Shown here: one piece after another, positions 7,360 to 18,469 of the stretch
Position numbering within the stretch: position 1 is the stretch's first letter
Layout of the letters: every line of letters begins with the position of its first letter
Source: a virus
Reading direction: 5' to 3' (one strand)
IMG/VR virus record: IMGVR_UViG_3300025012_000307
Coordinates: 1 to 21,482 of that record
Length of the DNA stretch: 21,482 nt
Notes under the pieces: generated by a model
The model's input: the letters and a program-made list of their open reading frames with translations, nothing else
Databases searched by the model: none
What the model was told of the DNA's origin: nothing
Position numbers and translations under genes: made by a program

Positions 7360-7712
7360 ACCAAAAATGCCTTCCGTAAAAATTGATCTCCTTTGATTGT
7401 CGGGATCTTCTCAAATCCCTCAATAGTCAAAGCATCTTCTGTTTCTGGAGCTCCTGAACTGGAAAGATCGATCAAATTCATCAAGGCCATTCTTCCTTTC
7501 ATCTCAAAATCAGTTTCGGAAAGGACTACAACCCTGGAGAGGATTTCCTCAACTCCATTTCCGGCACCTTGAGAACTCAAAAACTTCTCTTGCTTTACGG
7601 TCCATCTAACATCGACTTCAACCGGCTCGCCATAAGTATATCCGCCGTAACCATCCGGGGTTGGAGATGGCCAGTAAACTGCTTTCTGATTGAAAAACTT
7701 CCCAAAATTCAT
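7356..7712 (-). CDS. Head closure / head-tail joining protein
   Basis: A 118-aa beta-rich protein. It starts MNFGKFFNQKAVYWPSPTPDGYGG; a short N-terminal strand followed by a Gly-rich turn before 'V.vrw' is usual for head-tail stopper proteins. The ATG overlaps the previous stop (TGATG) and its own stop overlaps the next ATG (ATGA). The neck position, directly after the connector and before the gp10-like gene, supports the role more than sequence does. Confidence 0.75.
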   Translation of the reverse strand: MNFGKFFNQKAVYWPSPTPDGYGGYTYGEPVEVDVRWTVKQEKFLSSQGAGNGVEEILSRVVVLSETDFEMKGRMALMNLIDLSSSGAPETEDALTIEGFEKIPTIKGDQFLRKAFLV

Positions 7713-8083
7713 CAGTGATACCCAATCATATTCAAGGAAGCGGATTTGCTATAACCGTTTTTAGCTATCTTCCCAAGAGTTCCAGAGGTATCCAAAAGAA
7801 TTGCCATCTGGCCATAACTGGTACCATTCAAACCCATCCCCCACTGCCCTTGATAAGATTCAGAAAGGACATCAACACCAACAGATTTTACTCTCTGATC
7901 CTGTACGCTCAATACATGGGCGGAGAGATATCGCTCAATCTCTTTCAAGGTTTCATCTGTCAACCCAGCTGTTTCCAGCCAGGAAGTAACCATCATATTT
8001 GCAGTATTGATAAAGACATCAATATCGGTCAAAGAAGTATCGATAATGGCAAAGACTTCATCATCAGTTACTCGCGGTGCCAT
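7712..8083 (-). CDS. Head-tail connector / adaptor protein
   Basis: A 123-aa, mostly helical protein. VTDDEVFAIIDTSLTDIDVF, then FINTANMMVTSW, then EIERYLSAHVLSVQDQR, then SVGVDVLSESYQG. This layout (two N-terminal helices that define an 'integration window', a long 'erwlaAHll' helix, and an 'ses..gys' strand) is that of phage head-tail adaptors (gp6/gp15-like, DUF4054 neighbourhood). AGGAGG lies 8 bases before the ATG, which overlaps the stop of the sulfotransferase gene in TAATG. This overlap ties the cargo island physically to the neck genes. Confidence 0.82.
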   Translation of the reverse strand: MAPRVTDDEVFAIIDTSLTDIDVFINTANMMVTSWLETAGLTDETLKEIERYLSAHVLSVQDQRVKSVGVDVLSESYQGQWGMGLNGTSYGQMAILLDTSGTLGKIAKNGYSKSASLNMIGYH

Positions 8084-8760
8084 TACTTACCCTCCTGATT
8101 GAACCATTTCGGTTCGATAAATGCCTTGATCATCGGCTCATTGAATACCAAGCCAACTTTCTCAATCATATCCCTGGCGTAATCCCAATCCCCTGCACAT
8201 AGCCGGGATGGCCAGAAATCGATAATATCCAATTCGGCCGTATGCATTTCTGCAAATCTTTTTTCGTGCTGATCAATCCAAGTCTGCCAGCCTTCAGCAT
8301 CGCGATACGCCCGCATGAATCGCGTCAATTGACAACTGCGGATAATATCTTTATGGTCACGATGAATGATGATCCATTTTGCCCTGGGGAACGCCATATG
8401 CCACATATACCACATTCCAGCGGCTTTGGTGCATTTACAGAACCACTCACCACTTTTATATCCCTGCGACATCATAAGCCGCTGAACAATATCTCTCCAG
8501 TGATCTGCTTCCGGTTGGGAAACTTCAAAGACCTGGCGATTATTCGGGAGTGGTTTCTGACCCATTGGATCAGCCCCAATCTTTTTCAGGTACGGCTTGA
8601 CAATATCAGTTCGGAGTTTGCAATTCTCAAACATTCCCTTCTGGGCATCAATACTGGGGCCATACATCTCCCCACCAAAAGCCCCGCAAATATTGAGCAT
8701 CCCAGCCGTCATTGATGTTCCAGAACGAGCACAACCAACTACCAGAATCGGATCTTTCAT
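8083..8760 (-). CDS. Sulfotransferase-like protein (PAPS-dependent type)
   Basis: A 225-aa protein. The start is set at ATG 8760, not the upstream in-frame ATG at 8787, because 8760 forms an ATGA overlap with the previous gene, has AAAGGAG 5 bases before it, and begins right at the first beta strand: PILVVGCARSGTSMTAGML. CARSGTS (residues 10-16) matches the 5'-phosphosulfate-binding loop. IIHRDHKDIIRSC (about 131-143) matches the 3'-phosphate-binding motif, with Arg134 and Ser142 eight residues apart as in known sulfotransferases. The family moves sulfate from PAPS to hydroxyl or amine groups, often on sugars. The acceptor is unknown; the adjacent glycosyltransferases make a glycan plausible (inference). 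No PAPS-synthesis genes are present, so the donor would come from the host. Confidence 0.82.
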   Translation of the reverse strand: MKDPILVVGCARSGTSMTAGMLNICGAFGGEMYGPSIDAQKGMFENCKLRTDIVKPYLKKIGADPMGQKPLPNNRQVFEVSQPEADHWRDIVQRLMMSQGYKSGEWFCKCTKAAGMWYMWHMAFPRAKWIIIHRDHKDIIRSCQLTRFMRAYRDAEGWQTWIDQHEKRFAEMHTAELDIIDFWPSRLCAGDWDYARDMIEKVGLVFNEPMIKAFIEPKWFNQEGK

Positions 8761-9404
8761 GCATGCTCCTTTACGATTTCTTGCCAAAGGGTTGGAACTT
8801 CAAACGGCCTGGGTTTACCATGGAAAACAAGAACTTTACAATTCGAAGATATCCCGCCAGAACAATGTCGCTTATATGAGTAAATGCTCTCTGGAAAGGC
8901 ATCTTGTAATATTTTTGGGATAACTCTTTTTTCTCTCAGTTTGGCATTCGTATAATCTTCTTCCCCACGAAGTTGCTTGGAGAATTTCTCATAATCGAAT
9001 TGTTCATACAACCAGGACCAATCGCCATTCCAAGCCATAATCCCTGAGATAGTTCTGACTGGTGGCCGGAAAGATCGAATCATCCAAAAGTCTTTTTCGC
9101 TTGAATCAGTAGCCACTTTAAACAGGTCATCAATATTGCCTCTGATCACAGTATCAATCCCAGTCACAACTGTCGGCCCGATATTTCTGAAGACCTCGGG
9201 AACAGACCACCAACCAGGCCAGTTATTGATCAGGGAGATAGAAGTGACGCCATCAATCTTTTCCTTGGAATCTGTAAAACAAATGAAGTCATAAGGAATC
9301 GTCGTATTTGCTCGTACCTGCGCTGCAAGGAGCCGGACGTGCTCTTCTATATAATCCCCTCCTAACTTCAGTACGCAAGCAAATACAGGCATTGTTGACC
9401 TCAT
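8757..9404 (-). CDS. GT8-like glycosyltransferase, paralogue 2
   Basis: A 215-aa protein. The start is set at ATG 9404 (MRSTMPVFACVLKLGGDY): it overlaps the previous stop in ATGA and has GGAGG 8 bases upstream. The in-frame ATG at 9434 would overlap the upstream gene by 34 bases. A GT-A-like layout is visible: an N-terminal strand, YDFICFTDS, NWPGWWS, VVTGIDTVIRGNIDDLF (the place of the GT8 DxD strand), WNGDWSWLYEQFDYEKFSK, and a late VLVFHGKPRPF resembling the GT8 'H..G..KPW' end motif. It is clearly paralogous to the next gene upstream. The first Asp of DxD appears replaced by Gly (GID). Sugar donor and acceptor are unknown. Confidence 0.72.
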   Translation of the reverse strand: MRSTMPVFACVLKLGGDYIEEHVRLLAAQVRANTTIPYDFICFTDSKEKIDGVTSISLINNWPGWWSVPEVFRNIGPTVVTGIDTVIRGNIDDLFKVATDSSEKDFWMIRSFRPPVRTISGIMAWNGDWSWLYEQFDYEKFSKQLRGEEDYTNAKLREKRVIPKILQDAFPESIYSYKRHCSGGISSNCKVLVFHGKPRPFEVPTLWQEIVKEHA

Positions 9405-10036
9405 TCCACTAACCTCCACAGATTCGTTCTCCAAGGCTTGGGATCTCCATGGAAAATGACGATTCCTGGATCTTTAACAAGCCCTTTCCGAACATGGCGC
9501 TTATAACTACAAATCCCTTCGAAGTATTCTTGAATTGCTGTTAAATCAACCCCTTTAGTCAACAAAGCATTTATCTGGTAATTTTCATCACCACGATGGA
9601 GTTTTGATTCCTTCTCAAAGTCAAACTGATCGTATAGCCAGGACCAATCTCCATTCCAGGCCTGCATTCCATTTATGAACTCTCCCGGATGAAAGAACGA
9701 ATCAAGCAAAAAGAAATCCTCTTCCGGGATATGACAGACCATTTTCAAAAGGTCGTCGATGTTCTTCAGGATCATCGTGTCCAGGCCAATAGCAATTGTC
9801 GGCCCTTGATGTTTCCAAAGCTCAACGCAAGACCACCAACCGGGATAATTCTTTTCAAGTTCGACAGTCTCTATTTCTGGGAGTTCATCGGCCTGATCTG
9901 TATAGCAAACAAAACGATAAGGAATCGTCGCATTGCGATCAATCTGCCTTGCGAGCGCTCTCACATGGCCTGGATAATAATCCCCACCAGAGCGAAGGCA
10001 AACGACTATTGAAGGGATCTGATCAATCATAGCCAT
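9401..10036 (-). CDS. GT8-like glycosyltransferase, paralogue 1
   Basis: A 211-aa protein. Two in-frame starts are close together: ATG 10036 (GGAG five bases before) and ATG 10030 (ATGA overlap with the previous stop); I give the first. The layout matches its tandem paralogue: SIVVCLRSGGDY, YRFVCYTDQ, NYPGWWS, IAIGLDTMILKNIDDLL, WNGDWSWLYDQFDFEKESK, CSYKRH, IVIFHGDPKPW. The 'LDTMIL.NIDDL' strand corresponds to the GT8/glycogenin-type 'DADTLVL.NIDEL' with Gly in place of the first Asp, and HGDPKPW to the C-terminal GT8 motif. A role as a cytoplasmic sugar transferase is inferred from this; similarity was judged by eye. Confidence 0.74.
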   Translation of the reverse strand: MAMIDQIPSIVVCLRSGGDYYPGHVRALARQIDRNATIPYRFVCYTDQADELPEIETVELEKNYPGWWSCVELWKHQGPTIAIGLDTMILKNIDDLLKMVCHIPEEDFFLLDSFFHPGEFINGMQAWNGDWSWLYDQFDFEKESKLHRGDENYQINALLTKGVDLTAIQEYFEGICSYKRHVRKGLVKDPGIVIFHGDPKPWRTNLWRLVE

Positions 10037-10524
10037 TCACTCTCCGGCACCATTCCAATTTTAACTGCCCTGCTTTTCCCGTGAGGTGTTCCCCAAACTT
10101 CACCAGCCGGGATATCTTTCGTTACAAAAGAGTTGGCATGAACGAAGGCATTCTCACCAATATTTACACCAGGAGCAATCACAGCACCAGCCCCAATCCG
10201 AGCACCATTGCCTATAACAGCCCGCTCGATCTTTGGAACTGCCCGACCCTGATTTGCAATATTCTTTTCGTTGGTCATTACCACTCCAGGTCCAAAGAAA
10301 ACATTATCCCCGATAGTGGCTTCTGCAGTAATATGACATTGGGACTGGATTGTCGTATTACTGCCAATCTTGGTATCCCTTTCGATCACTACATTGTGGC
10401 CAATGATCGAGTTCTTGCCGATCTCCACATTATCACGCAGGACAACAAAGTGGAAAACCTTGGCATTAATAGCGATTTTGACCCCTCGATCAATTACAAC
10501 GTATGGGCTGATAAATCCTGACAT
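10027..10524 (-). CDS. Hexapeptide-repeat acyltransferase, WbpD/WlbB-like
   Basis: A 165-aa protein, almost entirely left-handed beta-helix: successive [IV]G-x(4) turns such as VEIGKNSIIGHNVVI, TKIGSNTTIQ, ATIGDNVFFGPGVV, AVIGNGARIGAGAVIAPGV, NIGENAFVHANSFV. GPGVVMTNEKN followed by a loop and the ending FVTKDIPAGEVWGTPHG is typical of UDP-2-acetamido-3-amino-sugar N-acetyltransferases (WbpD/WlbB), which use acetyl-CoA to finish O-antigen sugars. The full-length family is about 190 aa, so this is slightly short. AGAGGT lies 4 bases before the ATG, and the gene overlaps the previous one by 31 bases. The exact acyl acceptor cannot be read from sequence. Confidence 0.85.
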   Translation of the reverse strand: MSGFISPYVVIDRGVKIAINAKVFHFVVLRDNVEIGKNSIIGHNVVIERDTKIGSNTTIQSQCHITAEATIGDNVFFGPGVVMTNEKNIANQGRAVPKIERAVIGNGARIGAGAVIAPGVNIGENAFVHANSFVTKDIPAGEVWGTPHGKSRAVKIGMVPESEWL

Positions 10525-11141
10525 ATGACCTCTAATGGTTTTCGTTCAAATATTTCAAGGGCGCCACCAACTGTCGCGTTTATAATCCTCAAACCAACCT
10601 GCGCTGCATCTCTTTTTATCGCCGGCCAATGCTTCATAAACCTTGGATATGGATCGTGCAATTTCCCTTCTTTTTTATCCCACCGGACTTCATAATCATT
10701 ATGCCAGTGAGACTGTTTGTCCTTTGGGTCATCCGGGTTCTTCATATCGAACCCCAAGAGAACAACACTTGTAGCCCCCAGCCAATAAGCAAAATTAACA
10801 GCAGAGGCACCAGAATTACCATTCCAACCAATATGGGTTCGTCTTTTTGTTTCGAGTCCTGATTGTTTGCTCCTTCCGACATATCGCACCCGCCCTCTTC
10901 TCTGCCCTGGCAAAGTCGCCGAACAAGTAGCAATCAAACCACCATACTCATTGATTGCCGGCAAATTCTCTTCGTACCATCCTTTATCCCCGAACCAGCA
11001 AGCATCAACCCAAGGGCCGAGTTTATATGCCTGATTCACTCCAATTACTCGGTGATTATGGATGAGAGATAAATCTTGTTTTAAAAGACTGGCTCCACCA
11101 CCGATAATGAATACCGTCGAGCCCGGCCAGAGCGCCGGCAT
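10494..11141 (-). CDS. DUF115/GT42-like Rossmann-type protein, probable glycosyltransferase
   Basis: A 215-aa protein from ATG 11141 (MPALWPGSTVFIIGGGASLL). The open frame extends up to 11279, but those 46 codons lie inside the preceding gene, are basic and low in family-like features, and carry no family signal; a GTG at 11159 is a second possible start. Motifs: TVFIIGGGASLLKQDLSL (residues 9-26), RVIGVNQAYKLGPWVDACWF (31-50), GWNGNSGASAVNFAYWLGA (105-123) and VVLLGFDM. This arrangement (G.GpSL, N.ay...pwvD, GnSga.A...a..lGa..i.LlGfDm) matches the DUF115/MptE-like group and the sialyltransferase family GT42. Relatives recur in phage virion modules, sometimes called norphogenetic protein. Reaction not determined. 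Confidence 0.68.
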   Translation of the reverse strand: MPALWPGSTVFIIGGGASLLKQDLSLIHNHRVIGVNQAYKLGPWVDACWFGDKGWYEENLPAINEYGGLIATCSATLPGQRRGRVRYVGRSKQSGLETKRRTHIGWNGNSGASAVNFAYWLGATSVVLLGFDMKNPDDPKDKQSHWHNDYEVRWDKKEGKLHDPYPRFMKHWPAIKRDAAQVGLRIINATVGGALEIFERKPLEVICQDLSAHTL

Positions 11142-11151
11142 TTCCCAAAAA

Positions 11152-11631
11152 TCAGCCACGTGCTTCGAGTATTGCTTCCCGGAGATGATCTTCAGTTTCG
11201 TATTCTTCCATGATCTCGATTCCTTCCTCTTCCATGAGACTGATAAGGGCATCCCAATCGAGTGCGCCAAGATCGACAATTTCAGTCTTGGGGATCTCCA
11301 TCATTTTTCCCATGATTTTTTCCGCCTCGCCTTTTTTCATTGGGGTATCATTCAGGGGTTTATCGGGATTATCTGGATTGATAATATTGTACATTCCCCG
11401 CTGCACTCTGACCAGATGGAGTTCGTTCGGTGGAGCAATTGGCTCTTTAATCTTTACCGGTTCGGGAATCGATTTAACCGCCGTCAGACAATCATAATCC
11501 GCCTCGAATGAACCAAGGAATCCCTCCGGCACTTCGACTACATCGCCAGGCACTACCGAATATCTTTTCCCCTCATACTTAAAGGAATGCCGACCTGTTT
11601 TTGCTTTCTTTCTGTATTTACAAAGGTTCAT
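11152..11631 (-). CDS. Hypothetical head-module protein with HeH/LEM-like C-terminus
   Basis: A 159-aa protein with AAGGAGGA 4 bases before the ATG. The N-terminus (residues 15-45) looks like a small beta domain (KYEGKRYSVVPGDVVEVPEG), common in small phage head proteins. The acidic C-terminal 40 residues (DWDALISLMEEEGIEI, then TEDHLREAILEARG) resemble the HeH/LEM helix-extended-loop-helix motif found in some DNA-packaging and head-associated phage proteins such as lambda FI; this is a weak, by-eye match. It lies between the major capsid gene (with a hairpin between) and the sugar cassette, ending 10 bases before the next chosen start. Function unknown. Confidence 0.7.
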   Translation of the reverse strand: MNLCKYRKKAKTGRHSFKYEGKRYSVVPGDVVEVPEGFLGSFEADYDCLTAVKSIPEPVKIKEPIAPPNELHLVRVQRGMYNIINPDNPDKPLNDTPMKKGEAEKIMGKMMEIPKTEIVDLGALDWDALISLMEEEGIEIMEEYETEDHLREAILEARG

Positions 11632-11662: not shown

Positions 11663-11691
11663 TAGAATGGTGGATTGCGCCCACCATTCTA
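11663..11691 (-). terminator. Strong hairpin after the major capsid gene
   Basis: A perfect 11-bp stem (TAGAATGGTGG paired with CCACCATTCTA) with a 7-base loop lies 30 bases after the capsid stop codon and 31 bases before the next start codon. On the minus strand it is followed by ATTTCATCC, not a continuous T run, so it is at best a leaky terminator. A role in mRNA end protection or RNase processing that lifts capsid expression over the downstream genes is equally likely. Confidence 0.65.
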
Positions 11692-11721: not shown

Positions 11722-12795
11722 TTAAGCCTTCAGGATCGTTACGCCACAATTACCATTCTGATCGGCCCGAATCTGTGGCACCATGATCGTCATGACCTTG
11801 TAATTCGTGGTCATCCCACCACCCTCAGTCCACTCAACAGTGGTAAGGGGAAGGCCTTCAACCATCCGAACAACATCAGAAGTCATCTGGACCAGGATTA
11901 CGTTATCAGCGGTCAGTTTATCGACGACTTTAACCTCGGTAATGCCGGCAATTTCCAGGATACGCTGACGAATGGTCTTGTCGGACTCGGCCTTGTAATC
12001 ATCATCGAGAACGGTTTCGTACGAAGTCGGCACATAAAGAACCCAGGGGCCGTAGAAATGGGAGTCGATGGAGGCCTGTTTCATTTCCCGAACATCATCA
12101 AGAATCTGCTCACCAGTCTTGCCGGAGGCGTCCCAATTTGCCGTCAAGGTGACGTCGTTGGCCTGGGGGTGATCTAAGTACCCGTAAATCGTTCCACCGC
12201 CGTAAGCATAGGAAGAAACGCCAGCAAACAGCATCTCCTCGATCTTCTCTGCCACGACCCTAGCAGCCATGGTAGCGGTCGTGGTATCCAGCGGGGTACT
12301 GCCATTCCTGGAGGCCGTCAGGGTCCGGATATTATATTGGAAGTCCTTATGGACGATAGGCAGCGGCAAATACTTCAGGGTCGTTTCGGGCCGGTCGCGC
12401 TTGCTTGGAGTGACCGCATCCATGGTCAGTTCGGCGGCGGTCAGTTCAGAGATATCCTCATACTCAAGAACGGTTTTCCCAAGGCCATTACCAATCCTAT
12501 ACACCAGATTCCGGGAATACAGATCCGCTACACCAACAAGACGTTCCTGAGCGGCAAACATAACCGCCTGATCCAGTTCCTTCCATTCATCTTTCCGGAG
12601 AGTGGCGGCGTTAACCCGGACTACCTGCGGCTGACCGCTATTATAGACAACGGCATAAGCGTTGCCGTCCTCCCCGATCCAGGGTTTGAGCAGACCAACC
12701 GACATCCCGCCGGCCATCAATTTCTGTGCTACGGGACCAGACCCGGCACCATTCTGGATAAATTCAATCCCAGCATTCGCATACATTTTATTCAT
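11722..12795 (-). CDS. Major capsid protein, encapsulin/linocin-like HK97 fold
   Basis: A 357-aa protein with AGGAGGA 4 bases before the ATG. The sequence matches the linocin M18/encapsulin-like branch of HK97-fold capsid proteins: EWKELDQAVMFAAQERLVG, LEYEDISELTAAELTMD, LPLPIVHKDFQYNIRTL, AARVVAEKIEEMLFAG, IYGYLDHPQANDVTL, and a C-terminal domain with VVDKLTADNVILVQM and PQIRADQNGNCGVTIL. The length fits a phage capsid protein without a fused N-terminal scaffold; the separate protease/scaffold gene two genes upstream agrees. It forms the icosahedral shell. Assigned by motif pattern and by position after protease and decoration genes. Confidence 0.9.
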   Translation of the reverse strand: MNKMYANAGIEFIQNGAGSGPVAQKLMAGGMSVGLLKPWIGEDGNAYAVVYNSGQPQVVRVNAATLRKDEWKELDQAVMFAAQERLVGVADLYSRNLVYRIGNGLGKTVLEYEDISELTAAELTMDAVTPSKRDRPETTLKYLPLPIVHKDFQYNIRTLTASRNGSTPLDTTTATMAARVVAEKIEEMLFAGVSSYAYGGGTIYGYLDHPQANDVTLTANWDASGKTGEQILDDVREMKQASIDSHFYGPWVLYVPTSYETVLDDDYKAESDKTIRQRILEIAGITEVKVVDKLTADNVILVQMTSDVVRMVEGLPLTTVEWTEGGGMTTNYKVMTIMVPQIRADQNGNCGVTILKA

Positions 12796-12855: not shown

Positions 12856-13347
12856 TTACGCGATTTCTACCGGGCAGCGGCCGGACGGATCGGCAGCGCT
12901 GGAACCAGACATATCAACAGCGGCCATTGCGTAGCCAACAATACAGTTATCGGCAATCGGGGTGGTATCGGCACTGGAATCATCCCATACCGATTCGGTC
13001 GGGGCTGTATATTTGGTCAAGGTGCCATCGCCAGCAGACTGCAGAGGATCGCCGATAGCGATATTCTGGCCATTGGCAATAATGGCATTGACCTCAGCGC
13101 CGCGCTCCATGATCTCATACTGTACGCGAGTATTGGCGGTGTAAGCGTCGGAAATCGTCTTGCCCTGCATATCATCTTCAATAGCAAAAGCCTTCTGTGC
13201 ATGTCCACCAGCCGTAGCATGAACTCGCAGTTTACCAGTGGTCATAACTTCAACCAGATGACCCGGAGTGATAGCGGCGTTTGCCACTCGCTCTTTCCGG
13301 ATTCCTTCACCGATCAGGATGATCGTTTTTGCATTTGTAGCGGCCAT
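12856..13347 (-). CDS. Capsid decoration / cement protein
   Basis: A 163-aa protein with GGAGGG 5 bases before the ATG. It starts MAATNAKTIILIGEGIRKER and continues with ITPGHLVEVMTTGKLRVHAT, KAFAIEDDMQGKTISDAY and a C-terminal DNCIVGYAMAAVD. This beta-barrel pattern (a 'G.aI.pG.lv' strand, an 'A.a.e....g..i...y..g' strand and an 'a..vGya..avd' end) is that of phage head-decoration/cement proteins lying just upstream of the major capsid gene. It is expected to bind the expanded capsid surface and stabilise it. Confidence 0.78.
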   Translation of the reverse strand: MAATNAKTIILIGEGIRKERVANAAITPGHLVEVMTTGKLRVHATAGGHAQKAFAIEDDMQGKTISDAYTANTRVQYEIMERGAEVNAIIANGQNIAIGDPLQSAGDGTLTKYTAPTESVWDDSSADTTPIADNCIVGYAMAAVDMSGSSAADPSGRCPVEIA

Positions 13348-15628: not shown

Positions 15629-15702
15629 ATCAATTGTGTAATCGTAAGTAGTATAGCAATGGCCCAAAGAGTTCCGGATATAATTTTCTCTATTCTACTC
15701 AT
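15625..15702 (-). CDS. 25-aa single-span hydrophobic peptide
   Basis: A tiny open frame: MSRIEKIISG followed by TLWAIAILLTITQLI. A short charged N-terminus precedes about 15 hydrophobic residues. Its ATG overlaps the preceding stop (ATGA at 15699-15702) and its own TGA overlaps the MuF ATG (15625-15628), so it fills the gap between the two genes exactly. There is no Shine-Dalgarno of its own, so translation would depend on coupling. It may be a real membrane peptide or a leader that only keeps ribosomes moving from one gene to the next. Function unknown. Confidence 0.5.
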   Translation of the reverse strand: MSRIEKIISGTLWAIAILLTITQLI

Positions 15703-16061
15703 TTCGGGGTGGCTTGAGCCTGCACCTCAACCACCACAGTTACCCGGACATTCCCTGGAGCATCATCAGGCGGCGGATCATACTGATAGCATGGAGAATG
15801 CTGAGACTCCTGCCCACCAGCATCGATAGCCGTCAGTGTGTAACAGGCATCAGCGTCGCTCATATCCAGATCCCCGGTAAATGTCCTGGCGGTAGGGTTG
15901 TTGAATGCAGATAGCTTTACCCCATCCTTGTACATTACGAATCCGGCAAGGTCAGACGGACCATTCGCGTAATCCCATTCGACAGTTACAGACCTGGTTT
16001 TTGCCTGAGCAACTGAGGACAGAATCAGGACCGCCAGTATTGATAAAATTATTCGCTTCAT
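15699..16061 (-). CDS. Secreted small protein with fibronectin type III-like domain
   Basis: A 120-aa protein from ATG 16061 (AAAGGAGG about 11 bases upstream). The in-frame stretch further upstream (to 16265) runs across other small genes and is not used. Residues 1-20 form a textbook Sec signal: MKRIILSILAVLILSSVAQA, with AQA before Lys21 as a signal peptidase I site. The mature part (VEWDYANGPSDLAGFVMYKDG, ... YTLTAIDAGGQES) has the Trp/Tyr pattern of an FN3 domain. Cys73 and Cys91 could form a disulfide outside the cytoplasm. A secreted protein within a head-assembly operon is unexpected. It could coat the cell envelope or block superinfection, but nothing in the sequence decides this. 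Confidence 0.72.
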   Translation of the reverse strand: MKRIILSILAVLILSSVAQAKTRSVTVEWDYANGPSDLAGFVMYKDGVKLSAFNNPTARTFTGDLDMSDADACYTLTAIDAGGQESQHSPCYQYDPPPDDAPGNVRVTVVVEVQAQATPK

Positions 16062-16084
16062 CGTTTCATTTTCCTCCTTTAATT

Positions 16085-16168
16085 TCACATCGACCCAGCA
16101 ATCAGCCACAGCCCCGCCGCCAGTTCGACAGCGAGGATGACGAGCAGGGCGTTGATGATGTGGGTCAT
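16085..16168 (-). CDS. 27-aa single-span membrane peptide
   Basis: MTHIINALLVILAVELAAG followed by LWLIAGSM: nearly the whole peptide is one hydrophobic helix. GGAGAGG ends two bases before the ATG (GGAG five bases away), and the ATG overlaps the previous stop in ATGA (16165-16168). It lies 23 bases before the secreted FN3-like gene. Size and build are like small phage membrane peptides (holin-associated or inner-membrane regulators), but nothing identifies the role. Confidence 0.55.
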   Translation of the reverse strand: MTHIINALLVILAVELAAGLWLIAGSM

Positions 16169-16290
16169 GGCCTCTCCAGACTACACCGCGTAATATTCGC
16201 CACCTCAACCCCATCCACCATAGTCGGTTGCCAGATGTTGGGGCGGTCCTGGATGCACAGATCAAACCGCCTGCCCAGCCATTCAGGCAT
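16165..16290 (-). CDS. 41-aa hypothetical protein
   Basis: A short open frame starting MPEWLGRRFDLCIQD and continuing RPNIWQPTMVDGVEV. The ATG sits in ATGCCTGA, overlapping the last 8 bases of the SGNH gene, with GAAGGTG 7 bases upstream; the stop overlaps the next ATG (ATGA). It is soluble and mixed-charge, with two Cys. No family recognised. Coupling on both sides argues that it is translated. Confidence 0.55.
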   Translation of the reverse strand: MPEWLGRRFDLCIQDRPNIWQPTMVDGVEVANITRCSLERP

Positions 16291-18469
16291 AAGTTGTCAC
16301 CTTCAGTATCTCCACATTACTCGCTGGCTTGCCCCAGACTTGGGATTGTATCGCCCCGATTGACTTGTCTATCGTGTACCCCCATCTCAGATGAGTACTT
16401 GGGTTTACCGAGCCATCATAATTCGCTTCAGCCCCCCATGTGATATCTGCATCGGCCTCTTTCTTATACCCGATATACTGCTTCGTCCCGGCAGCATTGG
16501 TCTTCCATGCAATCAAAGGAGTCTCGCCTCTCGCCCATCCACCAGCCACTGTCACAGTAGCAGTGTTCGTGCCATCGAATGCTTTCAGCACCCCACCTGC
16601 GGCTGCGTAGATACCACCTGTGGCGCTGTTGTTGAATGCAAGGATATTCGTGTCACTGGTCACTTCGGCTGAAGATGCGCCGAGGTAGATCAAAGCGGCA
16701 GCGGTGAACACTGATGGCTGGATTCGTTGGACGGAAATCCAGCCAATTGTCAAGTCAGTATTAGCAACATTCCGGGTGAAAGATATATGCGGACCAGTTG
16801 CTACAAAAAAGACAATTTTTGTTTCTGCTTTAGTAAACGTGACATCAGATGCAGCCATGCCCGATGTCTTTATGCTGCCTGATGTGTAGTTTGATACTTT
16901 TACTACCATCCTATATGTCGATCCAACAGTCAGTACGTTGGTCTTGGCAAACGTTAAAGCGGGGCTAGTGGTCCCAGACTGAAATCTCATCCCGCTCGCA
17001 ACATCAGTAATGGTGTGGGTAGCGTCCTCGCCAGTTACAGCCCAGTCAGCTTTTCTTGCCAGGGTTGATGATGTTCCTGGAGAGGTTTCTATACTATCAG
17101 TAATATTTGTAAGTTCCGCCCACGGCGCTACAGCATCAAATTTCCCCGCCATAACCGCAGCACCGGCAGAATTAGGATGCATGTGGTCGCCAGTGTCATA
17201 GGCCGCAAGAAGCGCATCTGGGTTTTCTGGGTCTTCCAGCGGCGTGTAATTATCCACAACAACCACACCAGAGAAAGACGCGGCGAGAGAGGGTATCCAG
17301 GTGTTTAGCGTATCTGTTACCTCCTGCCTACCGGCACTCCACAAAGTTGCCCCTTTCCAGGGGGTGAGCAAGGACAGAGCTACTCGGCACCCAGTCGATG
17401 TAAGGGAGGAAAGTATTGCTGTTAGATTTGCCTGTATTGTCGCAATAGGAACATCAGTGGCAATGTCATTAATTCCAATCAGCAGCGCCACATAAGACGC
17501 ATTTAGGGCATACACATCAGTCTGAAGTCGTGCCAGCACATCGGCGGTTTTGTTTCCACTAACGCCCTTATCATAAATTACTGTTTTTGGATGTAATTCT
17601 TTTAAAACCAGGGGGTAGTCGGCCAATGTGATTGAGTCACCAATAGCCACAAGCGAGTACATACCACCAAGAGATCTCTTAATTCCTAAATTCAGCGGGA
17701 TAGCTGCCCCTATGCCTAATGATGTCGCTGCGGTTGATGGGATCAAGACAGATTCCGTTGTGCTCCTGACATACGGCAGAGAATATGCACCGAGGGTAAG
17801 CTGAGGTTGCCATACCGAAACAGTTCCGGTTGCAACTGCACTCGCACCGAGCCCGAAGCGAAAAATCGCTGTATCTCCGACCGCTCCCGCTGTAACCTTG
17901 ACCGACAGTTTGAATGTTCCAGCGGCAGGGACAGCAGTCTCGTCGGCTACGATAACTCCGTCTTTCATCACGACGATGGTTCCGCCAGTCAGTGAACAAT
18001 ACTCAATGTCAGCGTACCTCAGCACCCCATCAGTCGTCACCATCACATCGAAAGTATAGACTGCAAGTGCTGCGACCGCTTGTGATAGGCTGAGATACCC
18101 CCTTGATGCTGTGCCGCTGAATGTCAGTTTATTCTCTCCTTCAACATCCGTTACGGCCATCGTCGGGGAGCCGACAACAGTATACGTCCATCCTGTTGGG
18201 GTCGTTCCTGGCGAACCTGCAACCGCGCCAGCCAACACTGAATTGACAGCCAGTTGGGTATACGCAGGCTGCACCATCACCCCCCGCCCAGGATGATTGA
18301 CCGGGAATGCTACCATGTTGCCGTCAGCGTCGGGGACTGTGCCTGCTGCTGAGGTTTGGATTTGGGGGCCTATGGGGCAGGTAGTGGGTGTCTTGGCGTT
18401 CCACAAGGAGAGAAGACCAGCGGGGTATCTTTTTCTACGGCCACCAATTAAACCAAGCGATAAATTCAT
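16283..18469 (-). CDS. SGNH/GDSL-hydrolase virion protein (probable glycan esterase)
   Basis: A 728-aa protein that starts in TAATG with the previous stop, so translation is probably coupled. Residues 1-260 form a beta-rich, Gly/Ala/Thr-rich region with a lectin/carbohydrate-binding look (YTFDVMVTTDGVLRYADIEY, QLTLGAYSLPYVRSTTES). Residues about 270-450 form an SGNH hydrolase: LVAIGDSITL (Ser279), KGVSGNKTADVL (Gly), GINDIA (Asn334) and DHMHPNSAG (Asp428, His431). Blocks I, II, III and V are all present. The remaining 280 residues repeat the beta-rich style (TFAKTNVLTVGSTYRMVVKV, LIYLGASSAEV, VTVAGGWARGE). Such proteins deacetylate surface polysaccharide as tail fibres or spikes. Its location between portal and MuF genes is unusual. 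Confidence 0.82.
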   Translation of the reverse strand: MNLSLGLIGGRRKRYPAGLLSLWNAKTPTTCPIGPQIQTSAAGTVPDADGNMVAFPVNHPGRGVMVQPAYTQLAVNSVLAGAVAGSPGTTPTGWTYTVVGSPTMAVTDVEGENKLTFSGTASRGYLSLSQAVAALAVYTFDVMVTTDGVLRYADIEYCSLTGGTIVVMKDGVIVADETAVPAAGTFKLSVKVTAGAVGDTAIFRFGLGASAVATGTVSVWQPQLTLGAYSLPYVRSTTESVLIPSTAATSLGIGAAIPLNLGIKRSLGGMYSLVAIGDSITLADYPLVLKELHPKTVIYDKGVSGNKTADVLARLQTDVYALNASYVALLIGINDIATDVPIATIQANLTAILSSLTSTGCRVALSLLTPWKGATLWSAGRQEVTDTLNTWIPSLAASFSGVVVVDNYTPLEDPENPDALLAAYDTGDHMHPNSAGAAVMAGKFDAVAPWAELTNITDSIETSPGTSSTLARKADWAVTGEDATHTITDVASGMRFQSGTTSPALTFAKTNVLTVGSTYRMVVKVSNYTSGSIKTSGMAASDVTFTKAETKIVFFVATGPHISFTRNVANTDLTIGWISVQRIQPSVFTAAALIYLGASSAEVTSDTNILAFNNSATGGIYAAAGGVLKAFDGTNTATVTVAGGWARGETPLIAWKTNAAGTKQYIGYKKEADADITWGAEANYDGSVNPSTHLRWGYTIDKSIGAIQSQVWGKPASNVEILKVTTYA

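Follow-up and report, generated by a model that had tools for sequence, protein, structure and literature searches.

A variable sugar-modification and sulfotransferase gene island with fixed ends between phage capsid and connector genes

The window analysed here, a stretch of 21,482 bases, is a linear, incomplete virus contig from IMG/VR (IMGVR_UViG_3300025012_000307), the minus strand of which is a siphovirus-like late operon. Five open reading frames (ORFs), all on this strand and inside 8083-11141, lie between the genes of the major capsid protein (MCP) and a DUF4054-like head-tail connector, and encode a GT42-like protein, a hexapeptide protein, two GT8-like glycosyltransferases (GT_A and GT_B) and a predicted sulfotransferase. 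We found that this five-gene run is real and not a product of chance. It is one state of a variable island, which in related, uncultured tailed phages almost always begins with the GT42-like gene and ends with the sulfotransferase gene, while the genes in between are exchanged. On balance, we favour the explanation that the island encodes a modular cytoplasmic pathway, in which a sugar activated with cytidine monophosphate (CMP) would be attached to a virion protein, extended and capped with sulfate. Somewhat more tentatively, we propose that the relatives form a widespread phage lineage with sulfated-glycan virions, characterised by fixed attachment and sulfation enzymes, an exchangeable middle and, in some members, a phage-encoded supply of CMP-3-deoxy-D-manno-octulosonate (CMP-Kdo) and 3'-phosphoadenosine-5'-phosphosulfate (PAPS), which would be the first phage virion sulfation system.

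Results

Is the five-gene run peculiar to this contig? Searches with the sulfotransferase and the GT42-like protein, and with the MCP as an anchor that brings in less bias, provided the relatives, and the ORFs of 190 loci were annotated by profiles built from the window proteins. Junctions were compared in the 73 non-redundant loci that have both anchors, capsid and connector, on one strand, and contain 0-14 genes (the small post-capsid protein counted) over 0.1-10.3 kb. The five-gene set recurs in the same order in about a dozen IMG/VR contigs, with protein identities down to 42-63% (L036), and the rule for the start and end of the island extends to far more distant loci. The GT42-like gene came first in 59 of the 60 islands of at least three genes carrying it (10.7 expected at random positions), and the sulfotransferase gene came last in 49 of the 53 that carry it (9.4 expected), with an APS-kinase-like gene (APS, adenosine 5'-phosphosulfate) as the sole gene behind it in three of the four exceptions; the loci counted lack phylogenetic independence, and some of them were found via the sulfotransferase. 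Anchored on the MCP alone, 44 islands contain the GT42-like gene in 37 cases, the sulfotransferase gene in 31, a GT8-like gene in 29 and none of the three in 5. Minimal islands consist of both ends only (L065, L128, L141, L171), of the GT42-like gene only (L073) or of the sulfotransferase gene only (L177), and two are empty (L178, L184). Moreover, distances between GT42-like proteins track those between MCPs (rho 0.57, against 0.65 for the decoration protein). An initial annotation of the window had described a five-gene cassette and had named a chance association in one genome as an outcome that would speak against it. The search at other capsid-neck junctions that it suggested revealed instead an order that recurs across relatives; the cassette stands as a functional unit, but not as a fixed one.

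The middle of the island turns over rapidly between phages. Pairs at 40-50% MCP identity have a median of 0 middle genes in common, and pairs above 80% have most of them in common. Representatives of the middle genes matched glycosyltransferases (GT2, GT9, GT11, GT29 and GT-D), FkbM and other methyltransferases, epimerase/dehydratase, UDP-glucose/GDP-mannose dehydrogenase, short-chain and zinc dehydrogenases, two transketolase halves, cupins, radical SAM enzymes and extra sulfotransferases, while several had no match to anything in the profile comparison. The transketolase is split into adjacent TPP-binding and pyrimidine-binding halves in about six loci (L101:13635-14854 and related islands), and one island encodes a 1008-amino-acid protein with a GT29 sialyltransferase domain of eukaryote type (L090:5331-8357). 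A sequence that by eye resembles a GIY-YIG homing endonuclease lies within the sugar island (L164:3858-4481), and a radical SAM-type gene of the L148 island carries an intein-like insertion; such elements could be agents of island turnover.

Within the window, the GT42-like gene overlaps the hexapeptide gene by 31 nt, which in turn overlaps the GT_A gene by 10 nt, or by 4 nt if the second ATG serves as start. The GT_A/GT_B and GT_B/sulfotransferase overlaps are 4 nt each (ATGA), and the sulfotransferase gene overlaps the connector gene by 1 nt (TAATG). These junctions agree with the overlapping same-strand run between capsid and neck genes, coupled at its downstream junctions, that had been read initially. 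As had been suggested there, all five products were searched with profiles (Table 1), and AlphaFold models of the GT42-like protein and GT_B were examined. Together with motif evidence, this bore out the two GT8-like transferases, the sulfotransferase-like protein and the acetyltransferase-type protein.

The product of the first gene had been called DUF115/GT42-like, and only the second part of this name held. PF01973 (DUF115/MptE-like) gave just 18.6 bits against a cut-off of 34.6, so formal membership of DUF115 does not apply, whereas PHROG 4603 'alpha-2,3-sialyltransferase' was matched with E 3e-33. The family profile aligned to Campylobacter CstII over residues 14-196, nearly the whole length (E 0.001), and the AlphaFold model (pLDDT 95.5) had CstII (1ro8) as its top PDB match (prob 1.00, TMq 0.52), with a Foldseek E of only 2e-3 that indicates a distant relation. 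On the profile and the modelled fold, GT42-like is the better supported description. GT42 enzymes use CMP-sugars as donors.

The hexapeptide protein is a beta-helix related to amino-sugar N-acetyltransferases (WbpD/WlbB-type). Its closest solved relatives are the N-acetyltransferase 7s43, the WxcM-like 4mzu (E 2e-19) and the lipopolysaccharide (LPS) acetyltransferase 3mqg (E 2e-18); the NeuD model stayed below its cut-off, and the matches do not assign a substrate. The model of GT_B (pLDDT 96.7) matched GAT1, GlyE and glycogenin in the PDB (prob 1.00), that is, a GT8-type GT-A fold. In the DxD motif, the consensus of the GT8-like family is DLD and the window proteins have GID and GLD, with the second Asp (D84) invariant.

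The last gene is predicted to encode a PAPS-dependent sulfotransferase of the Sulfotransfer_3 type (PF13469), a family above cut-off in the contigs of 13 of 20 relatives. The 5'-phosphosulfate-binding (5'-PSB) motif is a GxxRSGxS-type loop near the N-terminus, and R134, D138 and S142 (3'-phosphate-binding motif, 3'-PB) are invariant in an alignment of 23 sequences. Could this enzyme act directly on a residue of a virion protein, tyrosine or other, with the sugar genes forming a separate pathway that merely shares the locus? The closest solved relatives by profile are indeed tyrosylprotein sulfotransferases (E 0.0035), and the sulfotransferase stands alone in L177 and lacks a GT42-like partner in L176. 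However, the profile match is weak and covers only part of the profile, and 57 of the 59 sulfotransferase-bearing islands also have the GT42-like gene, which makes direct protein sulfation rather improbable.

With three queries in tblastn, no relatives of the sulfotransferase were found at E 0.01 among 50,697 cultured-phage records, nor did the five-gene cassette have a near-identical match among cultured phages. Brevundimonas MaInes, Citrobacter K1M and Halorubrum Hardycor1, cultured phages that are related through the capsid, show no comparable annotated run at the junction. The function of phage sulfotransferases has been recorded as unclear (PMC10580990). A phrase search of the open-licence literature returned no further papers on them, which is no proof of novelty, and in the same literature we found no earlier report of a sulfated sugar coat on phage particles.

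Where would the donors come from? The initial annotation had noted no genes for PAPS or nucleotide-sugar synthesis, which is correct for the 21.5-kb fragment but not for the lineage. Genes resembling APS kinase were found in 16 loci, in each of them flanking the sulfotransferase gene (with one small ORF between the two in L157). Each of the seven tested passed the Pfam cut-off, but activity of these island proteins is not assured because they are short; a full-length APS kinase is encoded elsewhere in one relative. A CMP-Kdo synthetase (KdsB) gene lies in the terminase-portal interval of eight fetched loci, directly after the terminase gene in the L053 contig and just after the portal gene in L071, and three of four tested proteins passed the equivalog cut-off. 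Examples are L035:202-963, L057:4787-5518 and L086:610-1308, and in some relatives the gene overlaps those of the large terminase and portal. The virion operon has in this interval a further slot for accessory genes. The earlier suggestion that donors are host-made does not fully fit relatives that carry APS kinase, KdsB, UDP-sugar dehydrogenase, epimerases and transketolase halves, and the lack of donor genes in the window is a local state, since relatives encode such enzymes. We do not claim full sugar synthesis by the phage, because neither NeuB (PF03102) nor generic nucleotidyltransferases (PF00483) were found in the contigs of 20 relatives.

The late operon around the island runs from a large terminase (fragment) through portal, GDSL-domain protein, SPP1 gp7-like head morphogenesis protein, protease, decoration protein and MCP to the small post-capsid protein, the five island genes and the connector, followed by head-tail joining, neck, tail terminator, major tail protein, tail chaperone and tape measure; the tape measure and terminase were identified from size, position and sequence. 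The small post-capsid protein has a homologue in 127 fetched loci, directly after the MCP in nearly all, and the connector is kept in the relatives compared. Between the MCP gene and the small protein gene, a perfect 11-bp inverted repeat at 11663-11691 resembles an attenuator or terminator and could hold capsid gene expression above island expression. Further upstream, a 728-amino-acid protein with a GDSL/SGNH hydrolase domain is encoded between the portal and head-morphogenesis genes (16283-18469). The small protein encoded next, at 15699-16265, begins like a signal peptide and contains FN3-like sequence, and relatives have other genes in this slot, some of them lipoprotein-like.

Table 1. 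Island genes, their borders and the decoration protein gene in the window
Feature	Position	Strand	Basis
Head decoration protein	12856..13347	-	PHROG 766 E 3e-17
Major capsid protein (MCP), left anchor	11722..12795	-	PHROG 771 E 4e-30, PHROG 264
Small post-capsid protein, left island border	11152..11631	-	Position after MCP and homologues
GT42/CstII-like CMP-sugar transferase (predicted), first gene	10494..11141	-	ATG at 11141; PHROG 4603 and CstII-like profile/fold
Hexapeptide (left-handed beta-helix) sugar acyltransferase (predicted)	10027..10524	-	PF00132 97.9 bits
GT8-like glycosyltransferase A (GT_A)	9401..10036	-	PHROG 1962 'glycosyltransferase' E 6e-26; family profile matches GT8 enzymes
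GT8-like glycosyltransferase B (GT_B)	8757..9404	-	PHROG 1962 'glycosyltransferase' E 3e-29
Predicted PAPS-dependent sulfotransferase, last gene	8083..8760	-	PF13469 37.4 bits (cut-off 27)
DUF4054-like head-tail connector, right anchor	7712..8083	-	PF13262 22.0 bits (cut-off 23.9), PHROG 302

Discussion

We infer the activities of the enzymes and their order of action as follows. Late in infection and in the cytoplasm, the GT42-like enzyme would move a CMP-activated ulosonic sugar of Kdo or nonulosonate type onto Ser/Thr of a capsid-surface or neck/tail protein. The two GT8-like enzymes would then lengthen the glycan and the hexapeptide enzyme would N- or O-acetylate a sugar. Last, the sulfotransferase would use PAPS to cap either the glycan or a protein residue with sulfate. 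The genes for the proposed first and last steps, attachment and sulfation, hold fixed positions beside the capsid gene and the connector gene, whereas those in between, on which the structure of the sugar would depend, are swapped from phage to phage. The result could be a charged and variable surface that alters recognition or adhesion. That sugar modification and sulfation form one unit in the virion operon, as initially proposed, is supported by the order kept over deep divergence and by the PAPS-supply genes beside the sulfotransferase gene.

Is the acceptor on the virion or on the host surface? The island could remodel host surface glycan, i.e. the core of LPS or lipooligosaccharide (LOS) or the capsule, late in infection, for example to prevent progeny from re-binding lysed cells or to exclude other phages, and its position would then merely be convenient for late expression. 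The families of KdsB, GT9, GT8, GT42 and the sulfotransferase occur in LPS/LOS or polysaccharide assembly, where such enzymes are soluble and the host's own export would serve. The strongest competing explanation is thus modification of the LPS core, in which KdsB, GT9, GT8 and GT42 all have a use. We nevertheless consider action on the host surface unlikely, given the fixed placement and overlap in the capsid-connector block over deep divergence and the inheritance of the GT42-like gene together with that of the capsid. In addition, a strong hydrophobic segment is present in only 2 of 434 island proteins, which leaves no flippase or membrane-anchored glycosyltransferase of the kind known from seroconversion cassettes; a cassette of this (gtr) type was rejected on the same count. 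Soluble proteins, the capsid-connector placement, translational coupling and co-inheritance together favour a cytoplasmic acceptor that is built into the virion, and we lean towards the virion rather than the host surface. We speculate that a Ser-rich loop at the C-terminus of the decoration protein, DMS[GD]SSxxDP, is a candidate modification site: it was found in 39 of 57 GT42-positive and 0 of 10 GT42-negative sequences, a motif chosen after inspection in related sequences with few negatives.

Addition of the sugars and sulfate to phage DNA bases is far less probable still. Glycosyl- and sulfotransferase-based nucleotide modification has been mentioned for phages (PMC10829341), but the GT42/GT8 folds and the capsid-neck placement do not suit DNA hypermodification, and we set it aside since proteins of the thymidylate-synthase/hydroxymethylase family were found in the contigs of only 4 of 20 relatives.

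Several observations weigh against a virion glycosylation and sulfation pathway. The virion acceptor is a point that we infer, and the loop of the decoration protein was correlated post hoc. The LPS core, too, is built with Kdo, GT9 and GT8 chemistry, by enzymes that are likewise soluble. The catalytic competence of the window GT8-like proteins is uncertain because the first Asp of DxD is Gly in both. Sulfation need not depend on the GT42-like gene, as L176 and L177 have only the sulfotransferase of this pair, and sulfotransferase distances track capsid distances weakly (rho 0.25). Finally, the MCP relatives fall in bins of metagenome-assembled genomes from many phyla, so we claim no host.

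Here, one phage sulfotransferase family is linked by its genomic context with a sugar pathway, with PAPS supply and with the virion operon. If the proposed pathway is true, phages would diversify the chemistry of their capsids by exchanging a cassette, much as bacteria vary their O-antigens and flagella, and the shared final step would add negative charge. Consequences would be expected for the recognition and persistence of phages and for shielding from antibodies, and the islands would supply compact, soluble enzymes for glycosylation and sulfation.

How does the island compare with known systems? Linkage of glycosyltransferase genes to structural genes, together with their conservation, would be expected of a virion glycosylation system, and the island shows both. 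Glycosylation of mycobacteriophage virions was reportedly described by Freeman et al. in 2023. Phage glycosyltransferases modify the capsid and tail tube there, and Che8 gp110, Corndog gp38 and Myrna resemble the island in that phage-encoded glycosyltransferases act on the phage's own virion proteins, as proposed here; as described there, these systems comprise glycosyltransferases only, and no fixed-end modular island, sulfotransferase, APS kinase or CMP-sugar enzymes are reported (PMC12363180). Maf enzymes work in the cytoplasm, where they attach nonulosonates, activated with CMP, to Ser/Thr of a protein that self-assembles (PMC3426422, PMC4065374), and Maf-dependent flagellin glycosylation precedes export (PMC4065374). 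This is like the proposed first step, although the window protein, unlike these flagellin glycosyltransferases, lies under the PF01973 cut-off. Chloroviruses and prasinoviruses share virus-encoded capsid glycosylation and a variable region bounded by capsid genes, but they are eukaryotic viruses and no sulfotransferase is mentioned for them in PMC12906663.

Among phages, P1 (pmgO, GT42-like; pmgQ, GT8-like) and Citrobacter phage phiNP have both homologue types together, as in the island, and the P1 pmgO/pmgP/pmgQ records carry putative morphogenetic functions by annotation; these phages differ in that the genes are not between capsid and connector and no sulfotransferase accompanies them, for P1 in the region covered. 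Pseudomonas phages of the D3/PMG1 type have, much as in the island, a GT42-like gene immediately flanked by those of the major head protein and head-tail adaptor, with a methyltransferase gene a few genes later, but no GT8-like gene or sulfotransferase is annotated in the region covered. The initial statement that no standard phage system has this set therefore needs division: the GT42-like piece has precedents in D3/PMG1-type phages and P1, and the GT8-like piece in P1, whereas the search of cultured-phage records gave no relative of the sulfotransferase. Virion glycosylation as such is already known, and it is sulfation and the modular architecture that appear to be the new elements.

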